Virus record (IMG/VR): IMGVR_UViG_3300048021_000427
Location: 1 to 24,671 of that record
DNA length: 24,671 nt
Strand: one strand, 5' to 3'
Source of the DNA: a virus
Under the pieces are notes generated by a model. It did not search any database. It saw only the letters and a program-made list of their open reading frames with translations, and was not told where the DNA came from. The position numbers were made by a program, and so were the translations under genes. This document shows positions 3,304-21,774 of the stretch, piece after piece (position 1 is the first letter of the stretch; every line of letters starts with the position of its first letter).

Positions 3304-3316
3304 GAGGAGATAACAC

Positions 3317-5785: not shown

Positions 5786-5791
5786 TGGTCG

Positions 5792-5799
5792 TATAAATA
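5792..5799 (+). promoter_or_regulatory. Late promoter TATAAATA upstream of gp20
   Basis: Exact T4 late box in the 39-base gap between gp19 and gp20, 25 bases before the gp20 ATG. A short inverted repeat (ATTG 5800-5803, CAAT 5807-5810) lies between the box and the AGGAG ribosome binding site. Confidence 0.82.
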
Positions 5800-5824
5800 A
5801 TTGATACAATATAGGAGTTAAAGT

Positions 5825-7363
5825 ATGGCTGAATTATTTGGGTTTCAAATTACGAGAGTAAAGAAAACAGAAGACCCTAAGCAAAGCTTTACAACTACCC
5901 AGGCGGATGACGGAACACAAACCGTCGCCGCCGGCGGGTATTTTGGCCAGTACCTCGATATGGAAGGTACTGCTAAAAGTGAAGCAGACTTAATAAGAAG
6001 ATACAGAGAAATTTCATTACATCCCGAATGTGATATGGCAGTCGAGGATATTGTTAATGAGGCAATCGTATCAAATGAATTGAGAGACGCTGTAAGAGTA
6101 AACACAGATAACTTACCTTACGGCAAAGATGTTAAAAAGAAAATTAACGATGAATTTAAAAATGTATTAAATCTAATGCATTTCAATACAAAAGGACATG
6201 ACATCTTTAGAAGATGGTATGTTGATGGTCGTATATATTATCAAAAAATTATTGATAGAGATTCACCTGTAAATGGTATAACAGAATTAAAATATATTGA
6301 CCCTAGAAAAATTAAAAAAATTAGAGAAGTTAGAAAGGCAAGACCTGAAAGAAATGACGCTGGATTAACTGTAGTAGATGAATATGTAGAATATTATCTG
6401 TTCAATGAAAAAGGTGTTTCAGGCACAACATCAGGTAGTGGTATAAAAATTGCACCTGATACAATCTCTTTTTGTCCTTCAGGATTAGTTGACCAACAGA
6501 AAAATATTGTAATGTCTTATTTACATAAGGCAATCAAACCTGTTAATCAATTAAGAATGATAGAGGACGCTGTTGTAATATACAGAATTGCAAGGGCGCC
6601 AGAAAGAAGAATTTTTAAAATAGATGTAGGAAATTTACCAAAACTAAAAGCAGAACAATACCTAAGAGATGTTATGGCAAGATATAGAAATAAACTTGTA
6701 TATGACGCTTCAACAGGAGAAATCAGAGATGATAGAAACTATATGTCCATGCTTGAAGATTTTTGGTTGCCTTCAAGAGATGGTGGCAGAGGTACTGATA
6801 TCTCAACATTACCTGGTGGACAAAACTTAGGTGAAATTTCAGATATCGAATACTTTCAAAAGAAACTATATCGTTCACTAAATGTGCCTGTAAGTAGATT
6901 AGAATCTTCGCAAGGTTTTAATTTAGGTCGTGCTAGTGAGATATCTAGAGATGAACTTAAATTTACTAAGTTTGTACAAAGATTAAGAAAGAAATTTACA
7001 GAGTTATTTAATGACTTACTAAAAACTCAATTAATTCTGAAAAAAGTTATATCTGAAGATGATTGGCACACAATCAATCAAAACATTAATTATGACTTTT
7101 TACAAGACGGACATTTTGCTGAATTAAAACATACTGAAATGATGAGAGAGAGACTTCAGTTAGCTGGCGAAATGAGAGATTATATTGGTAAGTTTTATAG
7201 TGTTGAGTATATTAGAAAGAATATATTACAACAAAGTGATAGTGAAATTATCGAAATGGATAAACAGATTAAGAAAGAAATTGATGATGGTATTATTCAA
7301 GACCCAACGGCTCAAATGGATGATACACCAGGCGACAACCATAATATGGAGGATGAAATATAA
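5825..7363 (+). CDS. 20: Portal vertex protein (T4 gp20-like)
   Basis: 512 residues (T4 gp20 is 524). Recognisable T4-like portal blocks are YREISLHPECDMAVEDIVNEA, YIDPRKIKKIREV, LHKAIKPVNQLRMIEDAVVIYRIARAPERRIF, and VPVSRLESSQGFNLGRASEI near the C-terminal third. Twelve copies form the ring at the packaging vertex; it nucleates head assembly, docks the gp17 motor and later joins the tail. TAGGAG precedes the ATG. Codons about 23-39 sit in an exceptionally GC-rich island (5891-5940, 32 of 50 bases G or C) with a palindrome and a potential hairpin, unlike the rest of the gene. The acidic C-terminus overlaps the next gene by one base. Confidence 0.96.
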   Translation: MAELFGFQITRVKKTEDPKQSFTTTQADDGTQTVAAGGYFGQYLDMEGTAKSEADLIRRYREISLHPECDMAVEDIVNEAIVSNELRDAVRVNTDNLPYGKDVKKKINDEFKNVLNLMHFNTKGHDIFRRWYVDGRIYYQKIIDRDSPVNGITELKYIDPRKIKKIREVRKARPERNDAGLTVVDEYVEYYLFNEKGVSGTTSGSGIKIAPDTISFCPSGLVDQQKNIVMSYLHKAIKPVNQLRMIEDAVVIYRIARAPERRIFKIDVGNLPKLKAEQYLRDVMARYRNKLVYDASTGEIRDDRNYMSMLEDFWLPSRDGGRGTDISTLPGGQNLGEISDIEYFQKKLYRSLNVPVSRLESSQGFNLGRASEISRDELKFTKFVQRLRKKFTELFNDLLKTQLILKKVISEDDWHTINQNINYDFLQDGHFAELKHTEMMRERLQLAGEMRDYIGKFYSVEYIRKNILQQSDSEIIEMDKQIKKEIDDGIIQDPTAQMDDTPGDNHNMEDEI

Positions 7364-7659
7364 TGAGTGAAGAAATAAAAAACTTTATAGATAAGTTAGG
7401 TAATGGTAACAATATAGAAGCTGGAGACGCTTTTAAGGATGCTTTGAGAACAAAAGTAGGAGACACATTAGACGCTAAGAGAAAAGAATTAGCTGGTCAA
7501 TTGTTTAGTACTGCTCAATCAATTCCAAATGAAGCAACATCTTTTAGTGACCCAAAACCTGAAATTGCAGAACCAGGAACATTTAATCAAGATGGTTCTG
7601 TAACAAATCAAAATGACGGTTCAGTAGATATAGATTTGACATCAGATGAAGCTAAGTAA
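7363..7659 (+). CDS. 67: Small acidic prohead core protein, gp67-like
   Basis: 98 residues. It sits directly after gp20, the place of gene 67 in T4. The central helix AGDAFKDALRTKVGDTLDAKRKELAGQLF follows the T4 gp67 pattern (an amphipathic helix with F, A, R and K then IA/LAGQLF), and the tail is acidic and disordered-looking. In T4, gp67 is a minor scaffold component needed for correct head shape and is destroyed by the gp21 protease. Start ATG 7363 shares a base with the gp20 TAA and lies just after GGAGGATG, a good ribosome binding site. The family call rests on position plus this helix. Confidence 0.6.
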   Translation: MSEEIKNFIDKLGNGNNIEAGDAFKDALRTKVGDTLDAKRKELAGQLFSTAQSIPNEATSFSDPKPEIAEPGTFNQDGSVTNQNDGSVDIDLTSDEAK

Positions 7660-7915
7660 TATTTTTGAAGATTATAATTTAGTAGATTCATCTGCTTATA
7701 AATCATTGTCGCCAAAATTAAAAACGGCTGTCAATGAGTTTTATAAAATGTTAGACAATAGACATGATAATGGAAGTTATCAAGATGATAATTTTTGTGA
7801 AAATATAGAAGACTGTGTGAAGACAATAGTATCTTCACATGATATAACAAAAGAACAATTGTTAGATTACATAGAATTAGAAGTAAGAGAACAATTGAAA
7901 CAAACAGAGGTGTAA
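7646..7915 (+). CDS. Small hypothetical protein in the gene 68 position
   Basis: 89 residues, starting MKLSNIFEDYNL and overlapping the previous gene by 14 bases. It looks all-helical and acidic: helices near 20-37, 48-64 and 68-86. No catalytic motif or membrane segment is seen. In T4 the gene after 67 is 68, another prohead core protein of 141 residues. The shared position is the only argument for a core role, and the sequence itself does not confirm it. Confidence 0.55.
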   Translation: MKLSNIFEDYNLVDSSAYKSLSPKLKTAVNEFYKMLDNRHDNGSYQDDNFCENIEDCVKTIVSSHDITKEQLLDYIELEVREQLKQTEV

Positions 7916-7922
7916 AGAAACT

Positions 7923-8303
7923 ATGGCAGTTACAACAAAAATTTTATCAGATAGTAAAACACATGCCAAAGTATTACTCACCTGGAACGCTGACGCCGCT
8001 ACAACAGCTGCGGCCGTGGATGCTTCAGGATTAAGTGGACATGCTGATGGAGCTAAACTTCATATTACAAACATTGTATATGGTGTAGGTTTAGGAGAAT
8101 GTAAATTAGAATTTAAAGGTGCTTCAAGTGATGTTGAGGCAATAAACTTATGTGGTTCTGGTCATTACTATGGCGCTGTAATTAAAAATACGGCAACTAA
8201 CACAACTGCAACTGGTGGAGACATTGAGGCAATTACAACTAATGCTTCATCTGGTTTTGCATTATTGACATTACAAAAACAAGGTATGGGTGAAAATAGC
8301 TAG
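7923..8303 (+). CDS. Small beta-rich virion-type protein, first of a tandem pair
   Basis: 126 residues, Thr/Ala/Gly-rich with alternating beta-strand pattern and no signal peptide or membrane helix. It aligns by eye with the next gene product. HITNIVYGVGLGECKLEF matches VISKVYYSINTSDSKSGVELIW, LCGSGHYYG matches LSGQGFMDF, and both have an A-T...TGGD/TGD segment before a final strand. The two are likely a tandem duplication. Lying between portal and prohead protease genes they are plausibly structural, perhaps head-associated, but I do not recognise a named family. Codons about 20-36 fall in a GC-rich patch (7981-8030, 32 of 50 bases G or C). Confidence 0.7.
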   Translation: MAVTTKILSDSKTHAKVLLTWNADAATTAAAVDASGLSGHADGAKLHITNIVYGVGLGECKLEFKGASSDVEAINLCGSGHYYGAVIKNTATNTTATGGDIEAITTNASSGFALLTLQKQGMGENS

Positions 8304-8311
8304 GAGACATT

Positions 8312-8704
8312 ATGGCAGATTTAGTAACAACACAGACAATTGCTGATACATCAGGTGTTAAATTTGTAGCAAAACTTACAAACTTTTCCGATGGTACAGG
8401 CGAAACTTTGGTTAAAAAAGTTGACGCTTCAACATTAACCTTTATGTCTGAAGATGGTAATAGGGTTATATCTAAAGTATATTATTCTATCAATACATCT
8501 GATAGTAAGTCTGGTGTTGAGTTGATTTGGGATGGAAGTACTAACGCAACAGCCTTATTTTTATCAGGACAAGGGTTCATGGATTTTAGAACTGATGGTA
8601 ATAGTATACCAAATAATGCGACAACACCGACAGGTGATGTGTTATTAAGTACAAAAAACTTTGCAAATGGTGATAATTATAGTATAATTGTAGAGTTTAG
8701 ATAA
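8312..8704 (+). CDS. Small beta-rich virion-type protein, second of a tandem pair
   Basis: 130 residues with strands typical of a compact beta-sandwich: KFVAKLTNF, VISKVYYSI, VELIWDG, TALFLSG, YSIIVEFR. AGGAG lies a few bases before the ATG. It is related to the product of 7923-8303, sharing strand order and the motif SG-x-G followed by a PTGD turn, but has diverged strongly. No enzyme motif is seen. Transcription probably continues from gp20, as the next TATAAATA box lies after this gene. A head decoration or other structural role is an inference from position only. Confidence 0.7.
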   Translation: MADLVTTQTIADTSGVKFVAKLTNFSDGTGETLVKKVDASTLTFMSEDGNRVISKVYYSINTSDSKSGVELIWDGSTNATALFLSGQGFMDFRTDGNSIPNNATTPTGDVLLSTKNFANGDNYSIIVEFR

Positions 8705-8733
8705 GAAAATCCTAATATAGAAGTAATTGTTTG

Positions 8734-8741
8734 TATAAATA
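8734..8741 (+). promoter_or_regulatory. Late promoter TATAAATA upstream of gp21
   Basis: Exact T4 late box 28 bases before the gp21 ATG, in the 65-base gap after the paired small genes. A purine-rich AAGAGAGAG lies downstream as the ribosome binding region. Confidence 0.82.
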
Positions 8742-8769
8742 GTATTAGAAAAAAAGAGAGAGTACACTA

Positions 8770-9414
8770 ATGAAATTAATTTCAGAAGAAGTATCAAATG
8801 CCGAATATCTTATAGAAGAAAAGAACGGCAAAAAAGAATACAAGATTAGAGGTGTTTTTTTACAGTCTAACATTAAGAATCGTAACGGTAGAGTTTACCC
8901 AAAAGATATCTTAATGAAAGAAGTAACAAGATACAACAAAGAATTTATCAATAAACATCGTGCATTTGGTGAGTTAGGACATCCAGATGGACCTACGGTC
9001 AATCTAGAAAGAGTTTCTCACATGGTAAATAAACTTTACCCTGATGGCGATAACTTTATTGGTGAAGCTAAAATCATGGACACGCCTTATGGTAAGATTG
9101 TAAAAAATCTTATAGATGAAGGTGCTCAATTAGGAGTATCATCTAGAGGCATGGGTTCCATTTTACAAAAGAACGGTGCTAACTATGTGAAAGATGACTT
9201 TTACTTAGCTACAGCCGCAGACATTGTAGCCGACCCTTCAGCTCCAGACGCTTTCGTAGAAGGTATTATGGAAGGAAAAGAGTGGGTGTGGGATAACGGT
9301 CTCTTAATTGAAAAAGATGTAGAGGCGTGGAAGATGGAAATGATGAGAGCGAAAAAAAGAGATTTAGAAGAACAAAAACTAAAAATCTTTGATTCGTTTA
9401 TTAAAAAACTATAA
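8770..9414 (+). CDS. 21: Prohead core protease (T4 gp21-like)
   Basis: 214 residues, the usual size for the T4-type prohead protease. The herpesvirus-assemblin-like fold is marked by NRNGRVYPKDIL, then GELGHPDGP with catalytic His71, and GVSSRGMGS with the nucleophile Ser at 124 or 125. A conserved ADIVADPSAPDAFVEGIMEG follows. The enzyme matures the prohead by cutting after (L/I)-x-E before Ala or Gly. Such a site, IME|G (166-169), lies within the protease near its C-terminus and may be an autocleavage point; IGE|A (97-100) is another match. Targets with matching sites are encoded next door (gp22, gp23). Confidence 0.95.
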   Translation: MKLISEEVSNAEYLIEEKNGKKEYKIRGVFLQSNIKNRNGRVYPKDILMKEVTRYNKEFINKHRAFGELGHPDGPTVNLERVSHMVNKLYPDGDNFIGEAKIMDTPYGKIVKNLIDEGAQLGVSSRGMGSILQKNGANYVKDDFYLATAADIVADPSAPDAFVEGIMEGKEWVWDNGLLIEKDVEAWKMEMMRAKKRDLEEQKLKIFDSFIKKL

Positions 9415-9417
9415 TAT

Positions 9418-9425
9418 TATAAATA
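9418..9425 (+). promoter_or_regulatory. Late promoter TATAAATA upstream of gp22
   Basis: Exact T4 late box starting 4 bases after the gp21 stop codon and 57 bases before gp22. The leader between them holds an inverted repeat (AAACTC 9431-9436, GAGTTT 9448-9453) and the overlapping 16-base palindrome. Confidence 0.82.
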
Positions 9426-9450
9426 TATCCAAACTCAAATAAGTTTAGAG

Positions 9451-9466
9451 TTTATAGTACTATAAA
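9451..9466. repeat. 16-base perfect palindrome before the gp22 Shine-Dalgarno
   Basis: TTTATAGTACTATAAA is its own reverse complement and ends against the AAGAGGAGA ribosome binding site of gp22. Its left arm overlaps the right arm of an AAACTC/GAGTTT inverted repeat, so two alternative RNA folds are possible. The placement mirrors the palindrome before gp18. Confidence 0.65.
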
Positions 9467-9481
9467 AAGAGGAGATTTTCA

Positions 9482-10603
9482 ATGGCAGAATCAGAAATGC
9501 AACCAGAAGCTATCGAAGAAGCAAGCGCTAATCCTATGGCGGATGCTCCTAAGAAGAATGCTGTTGCGGCTGAACCATCACATCTTGAAACTGATTATGA
9601 AGATTTAGGTTCACCAGTTGTTAAACCAACAGACAGTAATCCCGATGGTAGCAAAAAGGTTAATAAAGTATCTGATGAAGTTTCTAAAAGTGCTCAAGTG
9701 GCTGCAGAGCCATCACACTTGAAATCTGAAGAAACAGATGAAGATACAGATTCTAAAGATATTGAAGAAGCGAAAGCTAAAGAAGAAGTCAAAAAGGACG
9801 ATAAAGAAGTAGAAGAAGAAGGATATAAAAAGAAATCTTTGAAAGCTTCTAATTGTGAAGACATAAATGTTAAGGAAGACATTGACGCTTTAGTTGGAGA
9901 TGCAGATTTATCTGAAGAATTTAAAGAAAAGGCTGCTACGATTTTTGAAGCTGCAATTACTTCTAAAGTAAAAGCAGAAACAGAAAGATTAGAAGCTGAG
10001 TACAAAAACAAATTCGATGAAGAAGTTGAAAAATCTAAAGCTGAACTTACAGAAAAAGTTGATTCATACTTAAACTATGTGGTTGAAGAATGGATGAATG
10101 AAAATAAGTTAGCTCTAGAGAGAGGTATCAAGGGCGAAATCGCAGAAGACTTTATTGGTGGTTTGAAAAAATTATTTGAAGACCATTACATAGATGTACC
10201 TGATGAGAAATATGATGTTCTTGAAGACCAGGCTTCTAAAATAGAAGACTTAGAGAAAAAACTTAACGAAGAAATTGAAAAATCTGTAGAACTTAAAAAA
10301 GAAGTTGGCATTTTCAAAAGACAGGACATCATTGATGAAGCGTCTAAAGATTTAGCTGATACTTCTAAAGAAAAGTTTAACGGACTAGTAGAGAGCGTTG
10401 AGTACTCTAATGAAGAAGATTTTGCAAAAAAAGTAGAGACCATTAAGGAATCTTATTTTGGGCAAAAAGCTGAAAATTCATCTTCGGATGATATTCATAA
10501 TGTAGCGGCAAGCGATGAAACAGCAGATGTTGATTTATCGGATGCTATGGCTGCTTACACGGCCGCTATTACAAAAACCAAAGACATTAAGTTGTCGAAA
10601 TAA
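9482..10603 (+). CDS. 22: Major prohead scaffold protein (T4 gp22-like)
   Basis: 373 residues, very rich in Glu and Lys, helical with long coiled-coil segments (about 155-205 and 240-290), as expected for the T4-type scaffold core. T4 gp22 is 269 residues, so this one is longer, mainly through an acidic low-complexity N-terminal third. That third repeats VAAEPSHL exactly at 28-35 and 73-80. Candidate gp21 cleavage sites fitting (L/I)-x-E|A are IEE|A at 11-14, IEE|A at 94-97, and IFE|A and IDE|A further on. The scaffold fills the prohead and is degraded before packaging. The position between gp21 and gp23 is the T4 order. A strong GAGGAG precedes the ATG. Confidence 0.93.
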   Translation: MAESEMQPEAIEEASANPMADAPKKNAVAAEPSHLETDYEDLGSPVVKPTDSNPDGSKKVNKVSDEVSKSAQVAAEPSHLKSEETDEDTDSKDIEEAKAKEEVKKDDKEVEEEGYKKKSLKASNCEDINVKEDIDALVGDADLSEEFKEKAATIFEAAITSKVKAETERLEAEYKNKFDEEVEKSKAELTEKVDSYLNYVVEEWMNENKLALERGIKGEIAEDFIGGLKKLFEDHYIDVPDEKYDVLEDQASKIEDLEKKLNEEIEKSVELKKEVGIFKRQDIIDEASKDLADTSKEKFNGLVESVEYSNEEDFAKKVETIKESYFGQKAENSSSDDIHNVAASDETADVDLSDAMAAYTAAITKTKDIKLSK

Positions 10604-10627
10604 TAGTAATAAAGGAGAGACAAAGAT

Positions 10628-11959
10628 ATGTACTTATCTGAAACTTACGAAAAAAAATGGCAGCCAGTCTTAGACCATCCTGACCTTCCCGAAGTAAAGG
10701 ATAGTTATAAGCGTGCCGTTACAAGTGTCATCTTAGAGAACCAAGAACGTTCTTTAAAAGAAGACCAAGCTTTCCTATCTGAAGCTGCGCCAGTAAACAA
10801 TACTGCTGGTGTTTCAAATTGGGATCCAATCCTAATTTCTTTAGTTAGAAGAGCAATGCCTAACCTTATTGCATATGATATCTGTGGTGTTCAGCCAATG
10901 ACTGGCCCAACAGGTCTTATATTTGCAATGAGAAGTAGATATACAAACCAATCTGGAACTGAAGCTTTATTTGATGAAGCTGATACAGATTTCTCTGGTA
11001 GAAACGCAGCTGGTTCATCTAACGGTGGATTCTCTGCAACAGCCCACGATGGAACAAACCCAGGTGCTTTAAACGATAGTCCTTCTGCTGGTACTTATAC
11101 TGCTGGTACAGGGATGTCTACAGCTGAGGCTGAGCAACTAGGTGACGCTGGCGCTAACGCTTTTGCTGAAATGGCGTTCTCAATTGAGAAATCAACTGTA
11201 ACTGCTAAATCAAGAGCATTAAAAGCTGAATACACAATGGAACTTGCACAAGACCTTAAAGCAATTCATGGTCTTGACGCTGAAACAGAATTAGCAAACA
11301 TTTTGTCTGCTGAAATTCTTGCTGAAATCAACAGAGAAGTAGTCAGAACTGTCTACATCAATGCTGAGAAAGGCGCAGCTGTAAGCACAACAACTGCTGG
11401 AATCTTTGACTTAGACACAGATTCTAATGGTCGTTGGTCTGTTGAGAGATTCAAAGGACTTATGTTCCAAGTTGAACGAGAAGCAAACCACATTGCACAA
11501 AGAACTCGTAGAGGGAAAGGTAACATGATTATCTGTTCATCTGATGTAGCTTCGGCTCTTCAAATGGCGGGTGTTCTTGATTACGCTCCTGCGTTAAACA
11601 ACAATCTAAATGTTGATGACACAGGAAACACTTTTGCTGGTGTTCTTAATGGTAAATATAAAGTATATATTGACCCATATTCTGCTAACCAAGCTGCAAA
11701 CCAATATTTCGTTTGTGGTTATAAAGGTACTTCACCATATGATAGTGGATTATTCTACTGCCCATATGTACCTCTACAAATGGTTAGAGCAGTTGGTCAA
11801 GATACTTTCCAACCAAAAATTGGGTTTAAAACTCGTTATGGTTTACAAGCAAACCCATTTGCTGAAGCTGGTACAGGCGACGCTGCTGTTATTAACGGCT
11901 CTGGTTCTGCAAACAGCAACAGATACTACCGTAGAGTACAAGTACAAAACTTAATGTAA
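10628..11959 (+). CDS. 23: Major capsid protein (T4 gp23-like)
   Basis: 443 residues, shorter than T4 gp23 (521). HK97-fold and T4-like blocks are PNLIAYDICGVQPMTGPTGLIFAMRSRY, FSIEKSTVTAKSRALKAEYTMELAQDLKAIHGLDAE and, near the end, QPKIGFKTRYGL. The N-terminal region (1-52) looks like the propeptide. LSE|A at 50-53 fits the gp21 consensus exactly and would leave a mature protein of about 391 residues. A strong AAAGGAGAG precedes the ATG. It has no late box of its own in the 24-base gap, so it is probably read from the gp22 promoter. A rho-independent terminator follows 28 bases after the stop. Confidence 0.97.
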   Translation: MYLSETYEKKWQPVLDHPDLPEVKDSYKRAVTSVILENQERSLKEDQAFLSEAAPVNNTAGVSNWDPILISLVRRAMPNLIAYDICGVQPMTGPTGLIFAMRSRYTNQSGTEALFDEADTDFSGRNAAGSSNGGFSATAHDGTNPGALNDSPSAGTYTAGTGMSTAEAEQLGDAGANAFAEMAFSIEKSTVTAKSRALKAEYTMELAQDLKAIHGLDAETELANILSAEILAEINREVVRTVYINAEKGAAVSTTTAGIFDLDTDSNGRWSVERFKGLMFQVEREANHIAQRTRRGKGNMIICSSDVASALQMAGVLDYAPALNNNLNVDDTGNTFAGVLNGKYKVYIDPYSANQAANQYFVCGYKGTSPYDSGLFYCPYVPLQMVRAVGQDTFQPKIGFKTRYGLQANPFAEAGTGDAAVINGSGSANSNRYYRRVQVQNLM

Positions 11960-11968
11960 TTGTATTTT

Positions 11969-12016
11969 ATCGTTAGTAAACGATTGAGGGGGCTCACGAT
12001 GGTGGCCCCCTTTTTT
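11969..12016 (+). terminator. Rho-independent terminator after gp23, with a preceding hairpin
   Basis: The main stem is GGGGGC (11988-11993) with GCCCCC (12005-12010), extendable by one T-G wobble, followed by six T residues (12011-12016). Just upstream a perfect second stem, ATCGTT (11969-11974) with AACGAT (11979-11984), has a 4-base loop. The block closes the structural operon; a late promoter begins 5 bases later. Confidence 0.92.
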
Positions 12017-12020
12017 GTTG

Positions 12021-12028
12021 TATAAATA
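12021..12028 (+). promoter_or_regulatory. Late promoter TATAAATA upstream of the 12049 oxygenase
   Basis: Exact T4 late box placed immediately after the gp23 terminator. It restarts late transcription into the accessory cassette 12049-14342. The following 20 bases are entirely A/T with no Shine-Dalgarno. Confidence 0.8.
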
Positions 12029-12048
12029 ACTATATAATATTATAAATT

Positions 12049-12684
12049 ATGGCATGTGATATGAAAGAACACAGTATTAACAAGAAAAATCTATTTATTG
12101 ACGGATATTACATAGATGATAAGGTATGTGATAATTTAGTAGATTGGTTTGAAGACAATAAGTATAAACAAAAACCTGGAGTAAGTGGTGGTGTAGGTAT
12201 TATAAATCCTGAAATTAAAGATTCAACAGATATTTCTGTCTTTTGGCCATATGAAACTAGAGAACATTTAGCCCTAAACGATTATTGTTCTCAAATGGAT
12301 ATTGCTTTAGAGCATTATTGTGATAAATGGACAGTATTAAACCAAGGTGGAAATTTTTCTATGCATACAATGTTTAATATTCAAAAATATGAGCCTACAC
12401 AAGGTTATCATAATTGGCATAGTGAAAGAACTGATACAACTGTAACTACAAGAATGCTTGTCTTTATGACATATTTAAATGATATTAAAGAAGGTGGTGA
12501 AACTGCTTTTTTATATCAAAAAACAAAAATTAAACCCGAAAAAGGACTAACATTATTTTGGCCTTCAGACTGGACACATACACATAAAGGTATAATGTCT
12601 TACACACAAACAAAATATATTGCAACAGGATGGTATGTTTATACACAATATCCAGCAGGACAGGGTATGTTACGATGGACTTAG
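12049..12684 (+). CDS. 2OG-Fe(II) oxygenase with an H-x-E metal motif
   Basis: 211 residues from ATG 12049; an in-frame ATG at 12061 is an alternative, and neither has a clear ribosome binding site. The motif YHNWHSE (120-126) gives H124-x-E126 rather than the usual H-x-D. Then come a GGET strand (149-152), PSDWTHTHKG with the distal histidine at 177 or 179, and a Lys in TKYIATGW where most relatives have Arg. These are conservative changes, so activity is plausible. The substrate is unknown. It has its own late promoter and overlaps the next gene by 10 bases. Expression at late times suggests a role in virion or late-stage modification rather than in early takeover; that is inference. Confidence 0.82.
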   Translation: MACDMKEHSINKKNLFIDGYYIDDKVCDNLVDWFEDNKYKQKPGVSGGVGIINPEIKDSTDISVFWPYETREHLALNDYCSQMDIALEHYCDKWTVLNQGGNFSMHTMFNIQKYEPTQGYHNWHSERTDTTVTTRMLVFMTYLNDIKEGGETAFLYQKTKIKPEKGLTLFWPSDWTHTHKGIMSYTQTKYIATGWYVYTQYPAGQGMLRWT

Positions 12685-13313
12685 AGGTTAGACCAGAAGC
12701 TATTCAAAGAATGAGAGAGCGAACATACTCAGGCTCAGAGAGTGATATGGTATGTAATATGGGTGCTATAGGATTTAGAATAACCTGTTTAGTATTAGAA
12801 GATTGGGATGATTATGAACATAGTATGTTAACATCAAAGTATGATTATCCAGCAGACATGCATGGCACACCTTTGCCTGACCACGGATTTAGAAGAATAT
12901 GGCCAAACGGTGGTTCAAATTTTTATTGTGATTCTGACCCTGCTTTTTGTGATACACCTGGTTTAGAAGAAGAAAAACCCTTGAAATATGATATATGGGA
13001 ATATAAAAAATGGATAAAAAGAGATAGTCTTACATACAAAAGAATATTCAATAGAGAGTGGTATTGGTACTTTTACGATAAAGAAAGTAAAATAGGAAAT
13101 GGTCATTTTATGACACCAATTTATAACAAAAATACTAGAAAGTCTGAAGACATACAGTCTGATGATTATGTACAAGACCACGATGGATTCAAAATTGTAC
13201 TATCTCCTGAAAGTAGAGAATTATGTCAAAATAAAGTAATTCACATGTTACCTAAAGATATAAATGATGAGTGGTTAACTTACTCACAAGAAGAATTAAT
13301 CTCTTATAAATAG
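12675..13313 (+). CDS. Hypothetical late protein, Trp/Tyr-rich
   Basis: About 212 residues from ATG 12675 (MDLEVRPEAIQRM). A longer reading from GTG 12630 would overlap the oxygenase by 55 bases and looks less likely. The protein is rich in Trp, Tyr and Asp (IWEYKKWIKR, REWYWYFYDK, MTPIYNKNTRK) and has no membrane segment or signal peptide. Its C-terminal part (ELCQNKVIHMLPKDINDEWLTYSQEEL) is probably helical. I do not recognise the family. It lies in a late-promoter unit between an oxygenase and structural-looking genes. The stop codon TAG lies within the next late box. Confidence 0.65.
   Translation: MDLEVRPEAIQRMRERTYSGSESDMVCNMGAIGFRITCLVLEDWDDYEHSMLTSKYDYPADMHGTPLPDHGFRRIWPNGGSNFYCDSDPAFCDTPGLEEEKPLKYDIWEYKKWIKRDSLTYKRIFNREWYWYFYDKESKIGNGHFMTPIYNKNTRKSEDIQSDDYVQDHDGFKIVLSPESRELCQNKVIHMLPKDINDEWLTYSQEELISYK
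13305..13312 (+). promoter_or_regulatory. Late promoter TATAAATA upstream of the 13318 gene
   Basis: Exact T4 late box overlapping the TAG stop of the upstream gene. Only 5 bases separate it from the ATG at 13318, so a T4-like start site would fall at or very near the A of ATG, giving a leaderless or nearly leaderless late mRNA. Confidence 0.72.
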
Positions 13314-14381: not shown

Positions 14382-14810
14382 ATGACATTAGAAGAACTTC
14401 AAGATTTAGTCGATAAAGATTTAAAGCTTAACGATTCAGAGTTAGATTTAGAATCTTTAAAGACACCTCAAATACATAACAAATACTTAAAACATTACAA
14501 TAATTTTAAGTTGTTATTGGTTAGAGCTGAATCTGAACACAAGATACTTAAAAGAGAAAAATGGGAATACTATACAGGTAAGGCAAGTCCACAGGTATAT
14601 AAAGACAAACCATTTGACTTAAAAATATTAAAAACAGATATAGATAAGTACCTTGATTCAGATGTAGATTTACAAAAACTATCTCAAAAGATATCTTACT
14701 TAGGAACTGTTGTTGATTACTTAGATAAAGTATTAAGACAAATTACCAATAGAGATTGGCAAATAAAAAATGCTATTGAGTGGCGTAAATTTACTTCTGG
14801 CGCTGTATAA
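14382..14810 (+). CDS. uvsY: Recombination mediator UvsY
   Basis: 142 residues (T4 UvsY is 137). It begins MTLEELQDLVDKDLKL and has a helical, basic body with the T4-like pattern of a KWEYYTGKA segment, an L-x-TDIDKYLDSD turn and a C-terminal VVDYLDKVLRQITNRDWQIKNAIEWRKF. UvsY loads the UvsX recombinase onto single-stranded DNA coated with gp32 during recombination-dependent replication; uvsW, gp46 and gp47 in this window act in the same pathway. The gene starts 8 bases after a perfect sigma70 -10, so its early message should be leaderless or nearly so. No clear Shine-Dalgarno is present. Its TAA shares one base with the next ATG. Confidence 0.88.
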   Translation: MTLEELQDLVDKDLKLNDSELDLESLKTPQIHNKYLKHYNNFKLLLVRAESEHKILKREKWEYYTGKASPQVYKDKPFDLKILKTDIDKYLDSDVDLQKLSQKISYLGTVVDYLDKVLRQITNRDWQIKNAIEWRKFTSGAV

Positions 14811-15400
14811 TGTTACATCATAAATTATTTCCCACCAATATTTTCTTAATTGATAATCTTCTATCAAGTGAAGAGCTTTCTAAAATACATAACAGAGTTA
14901 CATTTGAAAAAGAAGACACAGAAAATTGGCAAAGTGATTATCTATTACACCATAATATTTACTTTAAAAATTTTGCTGAATTAGTTATGATACAAAATAA
15001 AAAGGCATTAAAGACATTGGGTTATCACTTTAATAGTTTAGAAATTACTGATATGTGGGCAAATATTTTAAGACCAGGCGAAATGCACACAGTACACAAT
15101 CACTCAAATAATTTTTTTAGTGGTGTTTTTTATGTTTATGCACATGAAACATCAGGTATCAATTTTTCGGACCCAAGACCACAAGCGTCAGTTTTTTTAC
15201 CTAAAAAAGATGACAACTTAGATAATGCCAATGTAATAACATATGATTCAAAATCAAATAGAATGTTATTATTTCCCTCATGGCTGTCTCATTGGGTACC
15301 TATAAATAAAAGTAAACATGATAGAATAAGTATATCATGGAATATTATGATACGAGGTGAAATGGGTGAACACAAAGATTTCCAATCAGCAAACTTCTAG
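14810..15400 (+). CDS. Putative 2OG-Fe(II) oxygenase of the HxxHNH / SGVFY type
   Basis: 196 residues. The block MWANILRPGEMHTVHNHSNN (82-101) followed by FFSGVFYVYA (102-111) is the signature of a putative 2OG-Fe(II) oxygenase group common in marine phages and bacteria. Metal ligands would come from H93/H96/H98 rather than a classical H-x-D. The distal part has LLFPSWLSHWVP with His161 and an Arg172 in KHDRISISWNI. It shows little similarity to the other oxygenases here outside the fold. It starts on the last base of uvsY, so it is coupled to the early recombination operon. The substrate is unknown. Confidence 0.78.
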   Translation: MLHHKLFPTNIFLIDNLLSSEELSKIHNRVTFEKEDTENWQSDYLLHHNIYFKNFAELVMIQNKKALKTLGYHFNSLEITDMWANILRPGEMHTVHNHSNNFFSGVFYVYAHETSGINFSDPRPQASVFLPKKDDNLDNANVITYDSKSNRMLLFPSWLSHWVPINKSKHDRISISWNIMIRGEMGEHKDFQSANF

Positions 15401-15959
15401 TTTATTAAAAACTTCTTACATTTCTTATTTTAAGGACGCCATTAGTTCAAAGTTATGTAATATCATAATTAATTACTTTGATAAAAATGCTAAGTGGGAA
15501 ACTTCTACATTTTCTACATCTTCAGGCATTTCTCCAATTACTAAAAAACAAGTGTTCATGCACAATTATTGGATTACTCAAAATCAAAAATATTATTCTC
15601 ACTTAAAAGAATGTTATCTTAATTGTGTCAATGAATACACAAAGAAACACCCAAGAATTATACCAGAAAGATTTACAGATTTTAGAATGAATCGTTACAC
15701 AAAAGGTGGTTATATGAAAAGTCATATAGACAATATACACCATAGTCATGGGCAACAGTTTGGTTACCCACATATAACTGCCTTACTATTTTTAAATGAT
15801 GACTATGAAGGTGGTGATTTTATTTTATGTGATGGTGAATATGAAGTACCTAAAAAGAAAGGTTCATGTATAATATTCCCTTCAAACTTTATGTACCCAC
15901 ATGAAGTAAAGTATGTATCAAAAGGAACAAGATATAGTGTAATGACTTGGATTATATGA
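15366..15959 (+). CDS. 2OG-Fe(II) oxygenase, prolyl-4-hydroxylase-like
   Basis: About 197 residues, using GTG 15366, which has GAGGTG (15354-15359) at good spacing; GTG 15357 in frame is the alternative, and no ATG exists near the N-terminus. The catalytic set is complete: KSHIDNIHH (H120-x-D122), YEGGDFILCD, FPSNFMYPHEV (H179) and KGTRYSVMTW (R189). The blocks GGDF, FPSNF and KGTRYS parallel those in the truncated oxygenase at 2-463, so the two are probably paralogs flanking the structural block. It overlaps the preceding oxygenase gene and shares an ATGA junction with uvsW, placing it in the uvsY-uvsW operon. The substrate is unknown. Confidence 0.85.
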   Translation: MNTKISNQQTSSLLKTSYISYFKDAISSKLCNIIINYFDKNAKWETSTFSTSSGISPITKKQVFMHNYWITQNQKYYSHLKECYLNCVNEYTKKHPRIIPERFTDFRMNRYTKGGYMKSHIDNIHHSHGQQFGYPHITALLFLNDDYEGGDFILCDGEYEVPKKKGSCIIFPSNFMYPHEVKYVSKGTRYSVMTWII

Positions 15960-17434
15960 GAAATATTATAATAACTAAAAAAGATGAAGTACATCTTCAA
16001 GTGGATGCCGAAGCTGATTTAAGGAGAGATTTATCATCTTACTTTACCTTTGAAGTGCCTGGTTATAAGTTTATGCCACAGTATAGAAGTAGAAGGTGGG
16101 ATGGAAAAATTCGCCTGTTTTCCTACGCTAATGGTCAAATCTATACAGGTCTATATCCTTACATACTTAATTGGTGTAAAGAAAATGATGTAGAGATAAT
16201 AGATAACACAGGCATAAAGGATGCCACACTAGATGATAAACTAGTAGATACATTTATCTCTAAACTAAAGATACCTTTTGAAGTAAGAGATTATCAGAAA
16301 GCTGCCTTTAAACATTCGTTAGTTAAGAGTAGATGTTTGTTATTATCGCCGACGGCCTCCGGAAAATCTTTAATAACCTATCTGATGGTTCGTTTTAATT
16401 TACTAAGATTAAAAGAGGAGAAAAACAATAAGATATTGATAATAGTTCCGACTACTTCTTTGGTTGAACAATTATATAAAGACTTTAATGATTATGGTTA
16501 TAATAGTTTAAAGAATGTTCATAAGATATATCAAGGTCATGAAAAAGAAACAAACAAAAGAATTGTGATATCTACTTGGCAATCTATCTATCAAATGCCT
16601 AAAAATTGGTTTCAAGAATATGGTATGATAATAGGTGATGAGGCACATCTATTTAAAGCAGTATCACTAACAAAGATATTATCTAAACTTGTAGACTGTA
16701 AATATAGAGTAGGTCTTACAGGCACTTTAGATGATAGTAAAACACATAAGTTAGTTTTAGAAGGATTATTTGGTGCTGTAAACAGAGTTGTATCAACAGC
16801 AGAATTACAAGAAAAGAAACAGTTAGCTGCTTTAAAAATATATTGCCTTGTTCTGCAACATGACAAGTATTCTAGAGATTTTTTAAGAGAAAAAAGTTAT
16901 CAAGAAGAAATGGATTTTCTTGTATCTTGTGAGTCTCGAAATAAATTTATAACCAATCTGTGTTCCGATTTACAAGGTAATTCTTTATGTTTATTTCAAT
17001 ATGTAGAAAAACATGGTATGTTATTAAAACAAATGATTGAAGATAAGGCAAAGAATAAACAAGTCTTTTTTGTATATGGTGGTGTAGAAGCTGAAGAAAG
17101 AGAAAGAATTAGAGAGATAACTGAGAAGTCTGATAATGCAATTATTATTGCCTCATATGGTACTTTTAGTACAGGTATTAATATTCGCAATTTACATAAC
17201 ATAGTCTTTAGTAGTCCTAGTAAAAGTAAAATAAGAAACTTACAGTCTATTGGTCGTGGTCTTAGATTAAAAGATAATAACTCTAGTGCAACATTATATG
17301 ATATATCAGATGATTTAACACATAACGAAAAAGAGAACTATACTCTGGCCCACTTTAGAGAAAGGATAAATATTTACAACGAAGAAGGTTTTGATTACGA
17401 AATACATGATGTGGAGTTAAACAATGGAAGTTAA
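15956..17434 (+). CDS. uvsW: DNA helicase UvsW
   Basis: 492 residues from ATG 15956 (T4 UvsW is 503). The N-terminal domain (1-105) with FMPQYRSRRWDGKIRLF is the UvsW nucleic-acid-binding module. The SF2 helicase core has RDYQ (111-114), Walker A SPTASGKS (131-138), DEAH (228-231), LTGT (254-257) and motif VI QSIGRGLR (about 430-437). It unwinds R-loops and branched recombination intermediates and helps switch replication from origins to recombination. The TTG at 15947 is a less likely start; ATG 15956 overlaps the preceding stop as ATGA. The Walker A codons sit in a short GC-rich run (16348-16363) unlike surrounding codon choice. Confidence 0.96.
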   Translation: MRNIIITKKDEVHLQVDAEADLRRDLSSYFTFEVPGYKFMPQYRSRRWDGKIRLFSYANGQIYTGLYPYILNWCKENDVEIIDNTGIKDATLDDKLVDTFISKLKIPFEVRDYQKAAFKHSLVKSRCLLLSPTASGKSLITYLMVRFNLLRLKEEKNNKILIIVPTTSLVEQLYKDFNDYGYNSLKNVHKIYQGHEKETNKRIVISTWQSIYQMPKNWFQEYGMIIGDEAHLFKAVSLTKILSKLVDCKYRVGLTGTLDDSKTHKLVLEGLFGAVNRVVSTAELQEKKQLAALKIYCLVLQHDKYSRDFLREKSYQEEMDFLVSCESRNKFITNLCSDLQGNSLCLFQYVEKHGMLLKQMIEDKAKNKQVFFVYGGVEAEERERIREITEKSDNAIIIASYGTFSTGINIRNLHNIVFSSPSKSKIRNLQSIGRGLRLKDNNSSATLYDISDDLTHNEKENYTLAHFRERINIYNEEGFDYEIHDVELNNGS

Positions 17435-17882
17435 AACAGAAGAAAGTAAAGTAAAAGTATCTAAATCATTTGGTGTTAGAATCATTAAACTTATTAATGG
17501 TGATGATATTATTTGTGTTGTTCCTGCTGACAATAGACAGACGCCAGACGCTTCGCCTGTTTTGAGGGTGATAAAACCTTTATTGTTAAAATATGTGCCT
17601 TCTATGGAAGAAGATGGTTTAAGAGATTATATCGCTTTAGTTAAATGGACATCTTATTCTAACGATGAACTTATAAATCTTCCAAAAGATAAGATTATGA
17701 CTATCACTAGTGCAAACGAAGCTATAAAAGAAAGTTATAAAAATGTTTCTAAAGCATATACAGGTGGTGAAACTGATAGTTTAAATCAGGAAGTTTATTC
17801 TAAAGAAAAGATGACTGATGAATTGTCTAACAAAATAAATGAAATCTTTGACACCTTGGATGATGATACAACCAAACATTAA
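17424..17882 (+). CDS. Hypothetical protein with Sm/Lsm-like N-terminal strand pattern
   Basis: 152 residues. The N-terminal half is beta-rich: SFGVRIIKLINGDDIICVV, then VLRVIKPLLLKYV and IALVKWTSY. The KLINGDDI segment resembles the first strand pair of small Sm/Lsm-like barrels. The C-terminal half (about 100-152) is helical and acidic. Similar small proteins near uvsW occur in marine T4-like phages as far as I recall, but without a function. An RNA- or nucleic-acid-linked role would be a guess. GGAG (17411-17414) lies 9 bases before the ATG; the gene overlaps uvsW by 11 bases and is the last of the uvsY operon. A 79-base spacer follows. Confidence 0.6.
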   Translation: MEVKTEESKVKVSKSFGVRIIKLINGDDIICVVPADNRQTPDASPVLRVIKPLLLKYVPSMEEDGLRDYIALVKWTSYSNDELINLPKDKIMTITSANEAIKESYKNVSKAYTGGETDSLNQEVYSKEKMTDELSNKINEIFDTLDDDTTKH

Positions 17883-17961
17883 TCCTTACCTCCAAGCCTT
17901 CTCTGCACACGCAACACGCTAATTTTAACACAGATTTTTGAATCTGTCAATGGTGAAACGA
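17883..17961 (+). promoter_or_regulatory. C-rich spacer with a stem-loop before the desaturase genes
   Basis: The first 38 bases are pyrimidine/C-rich on the + strand, unlike anything nearby. They are followed by a perfect 7-bp stem, ACAGATT (17930-17936) with AATCTGT (17941-17947), and a 4-base loop. No T-run follows the stem, so it is not a classical terminator. No convincing sigma70 or TATAAATA box is seen. It may be a 5' leader element or a transcript-end structure. Confidence 0.4.
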
Positions 17962-18699
17962 ATGAATATATATCAGAAAATGAAACTAATAATGGTACTT
18001 TCCTACACATTATCTATTGTAGGAATGTTTTTTATTACAACAAACTATTTCTTAGTTTCACTTGTTATGTGGATATTATTTACAATAGGTGTATCTGGTG
18101 GATATCACAAACTATTATCTCATAAACAATTTAAAACAGGCAATTTTTTTAAATACTTTTTAATATTCATAGGTACTATATCTGGGTTAGGTAGTAGTAT
18201 CGCCTGGGTTTCACAACACAGGTTACATCATAGACACTCAGATGTCAAGGGTGAAGACCCATATTATCCACAAGAAAAACCTATACTAACAGGATTTCAT
18301 GGTTTCTGGCCAGTCAAAACATTTAATCTAATGATAGTAAAAGACTTGATGAGAGACCCTATACAACTTTTTATACATAATCACTATTTTAAAATAATAA
18401 CAATCTACATTTTATTGTTATTGTCAATCAACCCATTATTAGTTATCTATATGTGGGCGTTGCCATGTACCATGTATCTATTGTGTGTACACTTTGGTGT
18501 AGGTGTATTTGGTCATGGTCAACCAATAGAACTAGGTTGGAGAGAACATGATTTACCAGACAAAAGCATAAATAGTCATGTGCTTAATATATTTACATTA
18601 GGTGAGAGTTATCAAAACAATCATCATTTTGAACCTACTAAACTAATATGTGGTAGATATGATATGTTAGGTTATTTGATGAGAGCAATATCGAAATGA
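17962..18699 (+). CDS. Membrane fatty-acid desaturase 1 (acyl-lipid/acyl-CoA delta-9 type)
   Basis: About 245 residues from ATG 17962, preceded by GGTGA at 5 bases; ATG 17950 and TTG 17938 are in frame but lie in or next to the stem-loop. Hydrophobic segments lie near 8-28, 30-45, 63-80 and 130-165. The three histidine boxes of the di-iron desaturase family are HKLLSH (49-54), HRLHH (86-90) and YQNNHH (217-222). A Gln opens the third box instead of His, a variant I know from bacterial acyl-CoA desaturases. The family introduces double bonds into acyl chains in the inner membrane using O2 and an electron donor. No donor (ferredoxin, cytochrome) is encoded here. It is the first of three consecutive desaturases and ends in an ATGA overlap with the next. 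Confidence 0.9.
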   Translation: MNIYQKMKLIMVLSYTLSIVGMFFITTNYFLVSLVMWILFTIGVSGGYHKLLSHKQFKTGNFFKYFLIFIGTISGLGSSIAWVSQHRLHHRHSDVKGEDPYYPQEKPILTGFHGFWPVKTFNLMIVKDLMRDPIQLFIHNHYFKIITIYILLLLSINPLLVIYMWALPCTMYLLCVHFGVGVFGHGQPIELGWREHDLPDKSINSHVLNIFTLGESYQNNHHFEPTKLICGRYDMLGYLMRAISK

Positions 18700-19445
18700 C
18701 AAGTTATCAAATAGAAAACGCTAAACTATGTGCCTATCAAGGATTTTCTCTTATAGGCATAATTTATGGTTTATTCATTTTACCATTTTATCTATGGCTA
18801 ATATTTTGCTTCGTAGGATGGTTTCTAGGTGGAGTTATAGGTCATGGTGTTGGTCTACATAGATATTGGGCTCATAGAAGTTTTGAAGTAAACAAATTTT
18901 GGCATTATGTATTATGCTTTCAATCAACAATGTGTGGTATGGGGTCGCCAGCTACATATGCAAGTGTACATTTAAGACATCACAAATATTCAGATACAGA
19001 CAAAGACCCACATAGTCCTACACATAAAGGTAAACTATCAGTATTTTTTGGTTACTTTTTTAATATCTATGCTGTAGATTTATCGTATGCAAAAAGATTT
19101 TTAGTTAAATATCCAGAACAGAAATTTGTACATCAACACTATAACAAGTTTCATGTAGTATACATTACATTATTATTTTTAATTAATCCTATTTTATTAT
19201 ATCCATTATATTTCTTCCCTATAATATGGGCAGTTTTATTTGGTGCAATCGTAAATGTATTTAATCATTTACCTGATGAAGGGGTATCAAATAAGAAATG
19301 GATTGAATGGTTATTAGCAGGTGAAGGGTGGCATAAAGAACATCATTATAGAGCTACAGCAACTTATCCTTTTCCTGACTTTTCAGGTACCATTATAAAA
19401 CTTATAGGTGAACCAAAGGTTAAGTATCGTGTCCGTCAACCATAA
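18696..19445 (+). CDS. Membrane fatty-acid desaturase 2
   Basis: 249 residues. Histidine boxes are HRYWAH (55-60), HLRHH (92-96) with a following DKDPHSP, and GEGWHKEHH (209-217), all intact. Hydrophobic stretches near 17-50, 68-82 and 150-185 fit the four-helix topology. It shares the DKDPHSP block, INPIL and overall layout with desaturase 3 and is less close to desaturase 1, so 2 and 3 look like the more recent duplicates. It overlaps desaturase 1 by 4 bases and desaturase 3 by about 17, showing one transcription unit. Regiospecificity (delta-9, delta-12 or other) cannot be read from the sequence. Confidence 0.92.
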   Translation: MTSYQIENAKLCAYQGFSLIGIIYGLFILPFYLWLIFCFVGWFLGGVIGHGVGLHRYWAHRSFEVNKFWHYVLCFQSTMCGMGSPATYASVHLRHHKYSDTDKDPHSPTHKGKLSVFFGYFFNIYAVDLSYAKRFLVKYPEQKFVHQHYNKFHVVYITLLFLINPILLYPLYFFPIIWAVLFGAIVNVFNHLPDEGVSNKKWIEWLLAGEGWHKEHHYRATATYPFPDFSGTIIKLIGEPKVKYRVRQP

Positions 19446-20136
19446 ACTAGGAATTCTACATATACTAATTTGGCTAGGTGCATTATCTAGTTTCTTTATA
19501 TTGTCATTAACTGAATGGTTAATATGTATGTTTATAGGTTGGGTGTTAGGACTTGTCGCACAACCAATAGCAATACACAGATATTTCACACACAAGGCAT
19601 TTAAAACAAATAAATTTTGGCATTACTTCTTATTTCTACATGCTATTTTAGCAAGTGAAGGTTCACCATTAATGTATAAGTCTATACACTTGACACATCA
19701 TAGACATACAGATAGTAATAAAGACCCACATAGTCCAAAGTATAATGGAAAACTAGATACATTCTTTCCATACTTTAACTTTAAAAAAGATTTAAATATA
19801 AACCTATTAAGTGCAAGAGACTTATTAAAAGACAAAGAACATATTTTTGTAGACAAACATTACTTCAAAATTCATTTATTTTATTTCTGTCTCCTGCTTG
19901 CAATTAATCCAATTTTAGTGTATCCTTTCTATATATTTACAGCATTAGTATCAATAGTGGGTGGTGGATATATAAACACATTCTGTCATTATCCAGATTA
20001 TCCACAAGATAAATGGTTATATACAGTACTGTTTGCTGATGGTCACCATAAATATCATCATGATAATCCAGCAGATTACTATGTGCCGTTTACAATATGG
20101 ACAAATACATTTATAAAACTAATAAAAACCAACTGA
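19429..20136 (+). CDS. Membrane fatty-acid desaturase 3
   Basis: About 235 residues from GTG 19429, with AAAGG about 9 bases upstream; GTG 19408 in frame is an alternative, and no ATG start exists near the N-terminus. Histidine boxes are HRYFTH (50-55), HLTHH (87-91) with DKDPHSP, and HHKYHH (206-211), all intact. The region around the third box (ADGHHKYHHDNP) differs from the GEGWH of its neighbour, so substrate or position preference may differ. It lies immediately upstream of the gp55 promoter; read-through from this operon would also transcribe gp55. Confidence 0.9.
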   Translation: MSVNHKLGILHILIWLGALSSFFILSLTEWLICMFIGWVLGLVAQPIAIHRYFTHKAFKTNKFWHYFLFLHAILASEGSPLMYKSIHLTHHRHTDSNKDPHSPKYNGKLDTFFPYFNFKKDLNINLLSARDLLKDKEHIFVDKHYFKIHLFYFCLLLAINPILVYPFYIFTALVSIVGGGYINTFCHYPDYPQDKWLYTVLFADGHHKYHHDNPADYYVPFTIWTNTFIKLIKTN

Positions 20137-20139: not shown

Positions 20140-20168
20140 TTGACATAAAGTATAATATGGAGTATAAT
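20140..20168 (+). promoter_or_regulatory. Perfect sigma70 promoter (TTGACA-17-TATAAT) upstream of gp55
   Basis: TTGACA at 20140-20145, a 17-base spacer, TATAAT at 20163-20168. The -10 overlaps an in-frame ATG at 20167, so a transcript from here cannot include that codon. The second ATG, 20176, lies 7 bases beyond the -10, where transcription should begin. A GGAG at 20159-20162 would only be present on read-through transcripts. Confidence 0.88.
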
Positions 20169-20175
20169 GAATAAC

Positions 20176-20709
20176 ATGAAATCAGATAAGAAAAAAGAAC
20201 ATTATGTAAATAATAAAGAGTTTTTAGCCGCAATGGTTGAATACAGAAAGTTATGTAGTGAGGCAGAAGAATCTGGCGAAGCAAAACCACCTGTAACAAA
20301 CTATATCGGAGAATGCTTTTTAAAAATTGCAAACCATTTATCATATAGACCAAACTTTATAAATTATACATTTAGAGATGATATGATATCTGATGGTATT
20401 GAAAACTGTCTACAGTATCTTGACAATTTCAATCCTGAAAAATCAAACAATCCTTTTGCATATTTTACACAAATAATATACTATGCATTTGTAAGAAGAA
20501 TACAAAAAGAAAAGAAACAATCAGAGATTAAAAGTAGATTGATATTTGAAGGAAACTATGATGAATTTTCACTAAATGATGGTGAAGACAGAGATTTTAG
20601 AAATCAGTTTTCCGACTTTCTACAAAAGAATACTATACTTGACATGCCTAAACCTAAAGCTAAAAAGAAAAAGGAAGTTAAGAAAGGAAGACTTGAATAC
20701 TTTTATTAG
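20176..20709 (+). CDS. 55: Late-transcription sigma factor gp55
   Basis: 177 residues from ATG 20176 (180 from ATG 20167); T4 gp55 is 185. Conserved blocks are YVNNKEFLAAMVEY, YIGECFLKIANHLSYRPNFINYTFRDDMISDGIENCL and NFNPEKSNNPFAYFTQIIYYAFVRRIQKEKKQ, a minimal sigma region 2 that reads the TATAAATA box. The lysine-rich tail ends GRLEYFY, which resembles the hydrophobic C-terminal motif that in T4 binds the gp45 sliding clamp. It fits the TATAAATA sites throughout this window. The start is chosen because the perfect sigma70 promoter would place the RNA 5' end at about 20175. It is the third gene in this window with an ATG right behind a promoter. Confidence 0.94.
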   Translation: MKSDKKKEHYVNNKEFLAAMVEYRKLCSEAEESGEAKPPVTNYIGECFLKIANHLSYRPNFINYTFRDDMISDGIENCLQYLDNFNPEKSNNPFAYFTQIIYYAFVRRIQKEKKQSEIKSRLIFEGNYDEFSLNDGEDRDFRNQFSDFLQKNTILDMPKPKAKKKKEVKKGRLEYFY

Positions 20710-20712: not shown

Positions 20713-21774
20713 ATGAAAATTGCACTATTGAACGATACTCATTTCGGAGTAAGAAATGATTCACCTGCCTTTATGGAATATCAAAACAAATTCTATGATG
20801 AATTGTTTTTTCCATATCTAGAAGAACATAAAATCAAATGCCTAGTACATCTAGGTGATGTTGTTGATAGAAGAAAGTTTATTAACTTCAACACAGCACA
20901 CAACTTTCAACAAAAATTTTGGCGAAGATTGTGGGATATGAAGATAGATACTCATATAATTTTAGGCAACCATGATACTTATTATAAGAATACTAATGAA
21001 GTTAATGCAATGCAACAACTCATTACAACATTTGATGGTAAGGCAGAACCATGGATTTATTCATCACCAAAAGAAATGATATTTGATGGACTAAAAATAT
21101 TATTAGTGCCTTGGATATGTGATGACAATTATGATGAAAGTGTAAACATGATACAAAACTCCACAGCTCAGATATGCATGGGCCATTTAGAAGTAAAAGG
21201 ATTTGAAATGCATAAAGGATTTTTCAATGACCATGGTTTAGAAAAGAACTTATTTAAAAGATTTGAAAAGGTTATCTCTGGACACTTTCATAAGAAATCA
21301 GATGATGGTCAGATATATTATTGTGGTACACAGTATGAAATGACTTGGAACGATTATAAGTGTCCAAAAGGATTTCATATATTTGATACTCAAACAAGAG
21401 AATTAACTAGAGTACCTAATCCATTAAGAATGTTTAGAAAGATTTATTATGATGATAAACAAACTGATTATTCAAAAGAAGATGTATCAAAATATGATAA
21501 TACACATATTAAGATATTTGTAACCAACAAGACTGATAATAATATGTTTGAATCCTTTGTTAATAAATTACATACAGAGATAAATGCACACGAACTTACC
21601 ATTATTGATGAAGATACATCAGACATTACAGCTTCAGTTAGAGATGACATTTTAGACCAAGGAGAAGACACATTGACATTCTTAGGTAATTATGTAGAAC
21701 AAATAGATACTGATTTAGATAGGGCCAAACTTAAACAGTTTATTAATAATCTTTACAAAGAGGTTAACGAATGA
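20713..21774 (+). CDS. 47: Recombination nuclease subunit gp47 (Mre11/SbcD-like)
   Basis: 353 residues (T4 gp47 is 339). Calcineurin-like phosphoesterase motifs are NDTHFG (7-12), HLGDVVDRR (46-54), LGNHD (84-88), then GHLEVKG and SGHFHKK, giving the two-metal site. With gp46 it forms the Mre11/Rad50-type complex that resects DNA ends to create 3' tails for UvsX/UvsY recombination. The gene starts 3 bases after the gp55 stop in a TAGATTATG junction without a Shine-Dalgarno, and overlaps gp46 by 4 bases (ATGA). No defect is seen in the active-site motifs. Confidence 0.95.
   Translation: MKIALLNDTHFGVRNDSPAFMEYQNKFYDELFFPYLEEHKIKCLVHLGDVVDRRKFINFNTAHNFQQKFWRRLWDMKIDTHIILGNHDTYYKNTNEVNAMQQLITTFDGKAEPWIYSSPKEMIFDGLKILLVPWICDDNYDESVNMIQNSTAQICMGHLEVKGFEMHKGFFNDHGLEKNLFKRFEKVISGHFHKKSDDGQIYYCGTQYEMTWNDYKCPKGFHIFDTQTRELTRVPNPLRMFRKIYYDDKQTDYSKEDVSKYDNTHIKIFVTNKTDNNMFESFVNKLHTEINAHELTIIDEDTSDITASVRDDILDQGEDTLTFLGNYVEQIDTDLDRAKLKQFINNLYKEVNE

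Follow-up and report, generated by a model that had tools for sequence, protein, structure and literature searches.

What a T4-like phage does with three adjacent fatty-acid desaturase genes is the question raised by a 24.7 kb fragment from IMG/VR (24,671 nucleotides; this whole stretch is called the window below). A sequence-only reading had placed three overlapping plus-strand genes at 17962–20136, between uvsY–uvsW and gp55, and had suggested that they carry out sequential or position-specific desaturation of host membrane lipids.

The locus and its phage

Three intact ORFs with matches to PF00487 are found at this position, and profile matches of the flanking genes agree with the placement. 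Start codons were chosen by comparison with orthologues, that of DES1 being set against the contig L007. The likeliest starts are 17962, 18696 and 19429, so the limits first given for the three genes are correct. The longest ORF of DES3 opens further upstream, at GTG 19408. DES1 and DES2 overlap by ATGA, and DES2 and DES3 by 17 bp. Upstream of the cassette are uvsY, two 2OG oxygenase genes, uvsW and a gene of the phrog_431/471 family (phrog_471 is labelled methylamine utilization), and downstream are gp55, gp47 and gp46. The features of the locus are as follows.

17424..17882, + strand: left border gene, phrog_431/471 family, directly upstream of the site
17955..20123, + strand: inserted cassette, the segment that is 44 bp in the close relative L216 (blastn)
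17962..18699, + strand: DES1 (subtype A), membrane desaturase of 245 aa, ATG 17962, third box QNNHH
18696..19445, + strand: DES2 (subtype B), 249 aa, ATG 18696, boxes HRYWAH / HLRHH / HKEHH
19429..20136, + strand: DES3 (subtype C), 235 aa, GTG 19429, boxes HRYFTH / HLTHH / HKYHH
20140..20168, + strand: sigma-70 promoter consensus TTGACA-N17-TATAAT without mismatch, at the cassette's right edge, before gp55
20167..20709, + strand: gp55 late sigma factor, right border gene (phrog_234, E 8e-65)

The sigma-70 consensus at 20140–20168 scores 12/12 and overlaps the start of gp55, so that transcription would begin near the second ATG. The same consensus precedes gp55 in many relatives with and without the cassette, including L216, where the site is empty. 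A minus-strand promoter-like site (11/12) is located at 17922–17950, just upstream of DES1 and pointing away from the cassette, and overlaps a small inverted repeat, ACAGAT...ATCTGT.

Genes for several different 2OG-Fe(II) oxygenases lie dispersed among structural and recombination genes, at 12049–12684, 14810–15400 and 15357–15959 in the window and at 5461–6081 in the contig L126. Two of them, in tandem, adjoin uvsW, and the Pelagibacter phage Mosig EXVC030M has many more such genes.

The window aligns with Mosig at 76% nucleotide identity over 41% of its length and with HTVC008M at 81% over 4%, and shares with both Pelagibacter isolates the order of head, tail and replication genes. These matches identify the window as a piece of pelagimyophage DNA, from a SAR11-type, T4-like phage of the Kyanoviridae, in agreement with its first description as a T4-like phage carrying three desaturase-family enzymes. 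The same gene order and sequence match, seen in relatives of this metagenomic contig, make SAR11 the likely host.

Family, histidine boxes and predicted fold

DES1 and DES2 match the PF00487 (FA_desaturase) profile with 54.5 and 55.7 bits, above the cut-off of 29.7. DES3 gives nothing in hmmscan at E 0.01 and 31.1 bits in a six-frame search; its orthologue in L009 reaches 38.2 bits. All three score between 26.9 and 42.8 bits with the NCBIfam DesA family NF049918, below the equivalog cut-off of 400. The mutual identity of the three proteins is about 30% (28–31% when measured against DES1).

Boxes of the forms HX3-4H, HX2HH and (H/Q)X2HH are present in all three enzymes. Across an alignment of 44 relatives, eight histidine positions never vary and one more, the ninth, hardly does. 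In DES1, with boxes HKLLSH / HRLHH / QNNHH, the ninth position is Gln, as it is in the proteins of L007 and L009, and in L011 it is His; the change from His to Gln therefore arose within subtype A. DES1 is the one copy in which a ligand histidine is replaced by Gln. The suggestion that third boxes differing between the copies hint at different specificity keeps its force for DES1 (context YQNNHH), but not for DES2 and DES3 (GWHKEHH and GHHKYHH), which both have the standard HxxHH.

The AlphaFold models of DES1 and DES2 have pLDDT values of 92.7 and 92.8. The only PDB matches of the DES1 model with E < 0.001 are human and mouse stearoyl-CoA desaturases (SCD; 4zyo, 4ymk and 6wf2), with TM scores of 0.73–0.78. 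Among viral models, the DES2 model has two desaturase matches, a desaturase of Emiliania huxleyi virus and an 'OLE1' protein of an uncultured phage. DES1, by fold search, and DES2, by its model, thus have a predicted SCD-like fold. The likeness to SCD1 (PF00487; 4zyo, 4ymk) extends over the fold (TM 0.78 for DES1), the three histidine boxes and the nine-histidine pattern. In contrast to SCD, DES1 has Gln in place of one ligand histidine, the phage carries three to five different copies, and the enzymes are shorter (235–249 aa against 318–339 aa in the solved chains), with 18% identity. The residue four positions before an invariant histidine is Asn in SCD, DES2 and DES3, and Gly in subtypes A, D and E.

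The uvsW–gp55 site in related phages

This site is free of desaturases in L216, a close relative that shares 95.6% identity in gp55 with the window. By blastn its homology to the window stops after position 17954 and starts again at 20124, the two parts being separated by 44 bp in L216, which defines the cassette as 17955–20123. Mosig and HTVC008M also have no desaturase between uvsW and gp55. In empty sites a very short basic ORF of 9–36 codons takes the place of the cassette (L218, about 1095–1163; L216, 4222–4251; Mosig, 21290–21400).

Among viral contigs with both flanks readable, the site is empty of desaturases in 77 and holds three (n = 9), four (n = 12) or five (n = 2) in 23 distinct contigs, tallied by hand and including the window; since loci chosen through their desaturases are pooled with loci chosen through gp55, these counts describe a pattern and give no frequency. 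Sites with one or two desaturases are absent from this set. A triad standard in all related phages had been named beforehand as an outcome that would count against the sequence-only reading; the 77 empty sites, that of the relative with the near-identical gp55 among them, show that it is not standard.

About seven diverged subtypes, A to G, make up seven arrangements at the site: ABC, ABF, ABFC, ABFGC, DEC, DEF and DEFC. The triad of the window is thus one of seven combinations of three to five genes. From this comparison, the cassette is best described as an exchangeable multi-desaturase unit of pelagimyophages, present in the window in a three-gene version.

One pelagimyophage contig with the DEFC arrangement (L178; IMG/VR 3300048023_000188) has a further PF00487 gene at 10426–11709 on the minus strand, whose product of 427 aa (100 bits) resembles by eye an AlkB-type alkane monooxygenase.

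Desaturases at other sites

The D–E pair also occurs outside the uvsW–gp55 site. In L079, whose terL is 97% identical to that of the window, it is located directly upstream of the neck genes. A second desaturase site at this position in the phage of the window was considered and rejected, as a near-identical contig has tail-fibre-like genes there. About 50 further contigs carry D–E, sometimes with a relative of F. One of them (L096), examined in detail, has internal-virion and tail-fibre genes upstream, and its best matches are Pelagibacter phages such as EXVC031P Hodr and HTVC023P, suggesting that the pair is also present in podovirus-like contigs resembling a pelagiphage.

Subtype E has another desaturase directly upstream, either D or a different partner, in 79 of the 79 contigs in which upstream sequence is present. 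The different partner is found in the more distant contigs L110, L112, L115 and L116. In L110, a viral contig of 48 kb, the desaturase pair has at least four radical SAM genes as neighbours in the region 1–12753, and two of these encode SPASM domains.

Single desaturases are found in Mosig, away from the uvsW–gp55 site, and in the viral contigs L032–L038, so a set is not always needed. The Mosig protein (Mosig_00080; PF00487, 44.0 bits) comes from the same phage group as the window, but it is encoded by a single desaturase gene near 60 kb, in a different cluster that includes aminotransferase, Asp/Arg hydroxylase-like and FMN reductase genes, and it is 24–30% identical to DES1 and DES2. Matches to 'Acinetobacter phage MD-2021a' were set aside; this record (L044, CAKLQH020000002.1) holds a large number of ordinary bacterial chromosomal genes, among them btuB, baeSR and ydiU, and seems to be mislabelled.

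Origin of the subtypes

A tree was built from 46 viral and 34 cellular sequences; several of its deep branches are weak and some rows long. In it, B and C are sisters (support 99/93), A, D, E and F/G form separate clades, and no viral clade lies near the sampled cellular enzymes. Because the subtypes are separate clades, distant from cellular enzymes, the sets were put together from phage lineages of long standing, neither recent duplication nor capture from a host being their source. Recent tandem duplication is rejected by the 28–31% identity of the copies and by clades that are shared with other phages. Recent host capture is rejected in turn, since the closest cellular matches to subtype E are 25–37% identical and the PF00487 proteins examined in the presumed host are of another type.

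DES1, DES2 and DES3 are under purifying selection, with pN/pS values of 0.14–0.51 against their relatives, and the same holds for all subtypes tested.

Electron donor, partner genes and presumed host

Eighteen desaturase-bearing contigs, all of them fragments, encode no ferredoxin (Fer2 protein), in line with the earlier remark that no electron donor is encoded nearby. Mosig encodes a 2Fe-2S ferredoxin. In polyyne gene clusters, acyl carrier protein, ferredoxin or thioesterase genes stand between the desaturases. None is hidden in the arrays, where more desaturases occupy the intervals; acyl carrier, ligase and thioesterase genes are absent from among the desaturases at the site, and the cassette contains no integrase or transposase.

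We provisionally take the host order to be Pelagibacterales, through a match to a SAR11 16S probe sequence together with genome size (mostly 1.0–1.4 Mb) and low GC; a literature search for the probe sequence found no confirming paper. FabA scores above its cut-off in 86 of 97 genomes of this order, suggesting that the presumed host usually makes its unsaturated fats with this enzyme. PF00487 is found in 59 of 197 genomes, essentially with one copy each, and those copies that were examined differ in type from the phage enzymes (HEGAHG...HLSHH...HLEHH).

Possible roles of the cassette

On balance we favour a cooperating acyl-desaturation module that would act on host lipids and is carried by a pelagimyophage as an exchangeable three-gene cassette, a predicted activity that we regard as somewhat probable. 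Each gene would encode a minimal membrane diiron oxidase of the stearoyl-CoA desaturase kind, as indicated by sequence and, for DES1 and DES2, also by their models. The gene overlaps suggest a single transcript from which the enzymes would be made together. Fed by O2 and by electrons, most likely from host ferredoxin, the enzymes may introduce several double bonds into host membrane acyl chains, with each enzyme serving one position or one substrate; acyl chains are the expected substrate given the fold and the nearest relatives. The infected SAR11 cell, normally with FabA-type unsaturated chains, would then contain lipids whose double bonds are more numerous or lie at other positions. Such a change might serve to keep the membrane fluid, to prepare its lipid for lysis or to produce an unusual lipid.

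The enzymes probably work sequentially or complementarily, since the genes at this site come as sets and not singly. The long-separated, well-supported clades of the subtypes imply that they are not recent duplicates. The all-or-none pattern and the fixed D–E pair also favour the sequential or position-specific desaturation proposed initially, although we can only infer it. In its most specific form, which we put forward tentatively, two to five diverged desaturases acting in sequence would constitute a complete pelagiphage polyunsaturation pathway, giving SAR11 membranes polyunsaturated or otherwise unusual acyl chains beyond the reach of the uninfected host.

It is rather unlikely, but deserves attention, that the enzymes act in parallel, each turning its own kind of acyl chain, set apart by length, head group or sn position, into a monounsaturated product, with gene number setting dosage or adapting membrane fluidity to temperature. 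The nearly full ligand set and individual constraint of each enzyme would fit such a role, as would a gene number that varies from three to five with interchangeable types, and passages on single viral desaturases argue that they adjust fluidity under cold or salt stress (PMC7300359). Dosage alone, however, does not predict the fixed order and pairing of D and E or the missing one- and two-gene sites.

PF00487 also includes hydroxylases and other oxidases. The cassette could accordingly encode same-fold oxidases with a substrate outside the membrane or another reaction, such as hydroxylation, acetylene formation or the modification of a phage-specific lipid, a glycan acyl group or a signal molecule. 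The altered third box of DES1, the Gly that replaces the SCD Asn in three subtypes, the metabolic neighbours of the Mosig gene and the radical SAM genes around related pairs in L110-type contigs all point in this direction. We nevertheless consider it improbable, as the best sequence and structure matches are acyl-CoA desaturases and the arrays are devoid of acyl carrier, ligase and thioesterase genes.

That the cassette is passenger DNA of little benefit, selfishly mobile or recently duplicated, is very improbable: its presence differs between near relatives and related modules occur at other sites and in other phage types, but DES1–3 are intact with pN/pS well below 1, the subtypes diverged anciently, and the cassette is free of integrase and transposase genes.

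Relation to known viral desaturases and significance

The desaturases of cyanophages (vFADs) are reportedly single genes of two types. Like the cassette enzymes they are membrane desaturases encoded by marine phages, and they provide the precedent for single phage desaturases (Roitman 2018, as cited in both PMC11480375 and PMC7300359). A tblastn search with the cassette desaturases matched no isolate cyanophage. Desaturases have also been described in PMP-D pelagimyophages (PMC7029224), in viruses of cryopeg brine and sea ice (PMC7300359), in a Baikal Nitrospirota virus together with ferredoxin-related genes (PMC7678222) and in a pelagiphage-like scaffold (PMC11480375). In the passages found, these enzymes are likewise proposed to change host lipids, but none of the passages speaks of three to five genes in tandem. 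The literature searched, whose scope leaves out most subscription papers, makes no mention of multi-desaturase phage arrays. Within these sources, phage desaturases are known as single genes, and tandem sets of three to five are apparently new.

SAR11 is among the most abundant bacterial groups, and its phages are abundant too. By bringing three to five desaturases into a presumed host that has at most one, such a phage would alter the membrane lipids of cells as they die, and the cassette could supply unusual unsaturated lipids to seawater. With an all-or-none cassette and a clean empty site in a near relative, the role of phage desaturases, long open, becomes directly testable.
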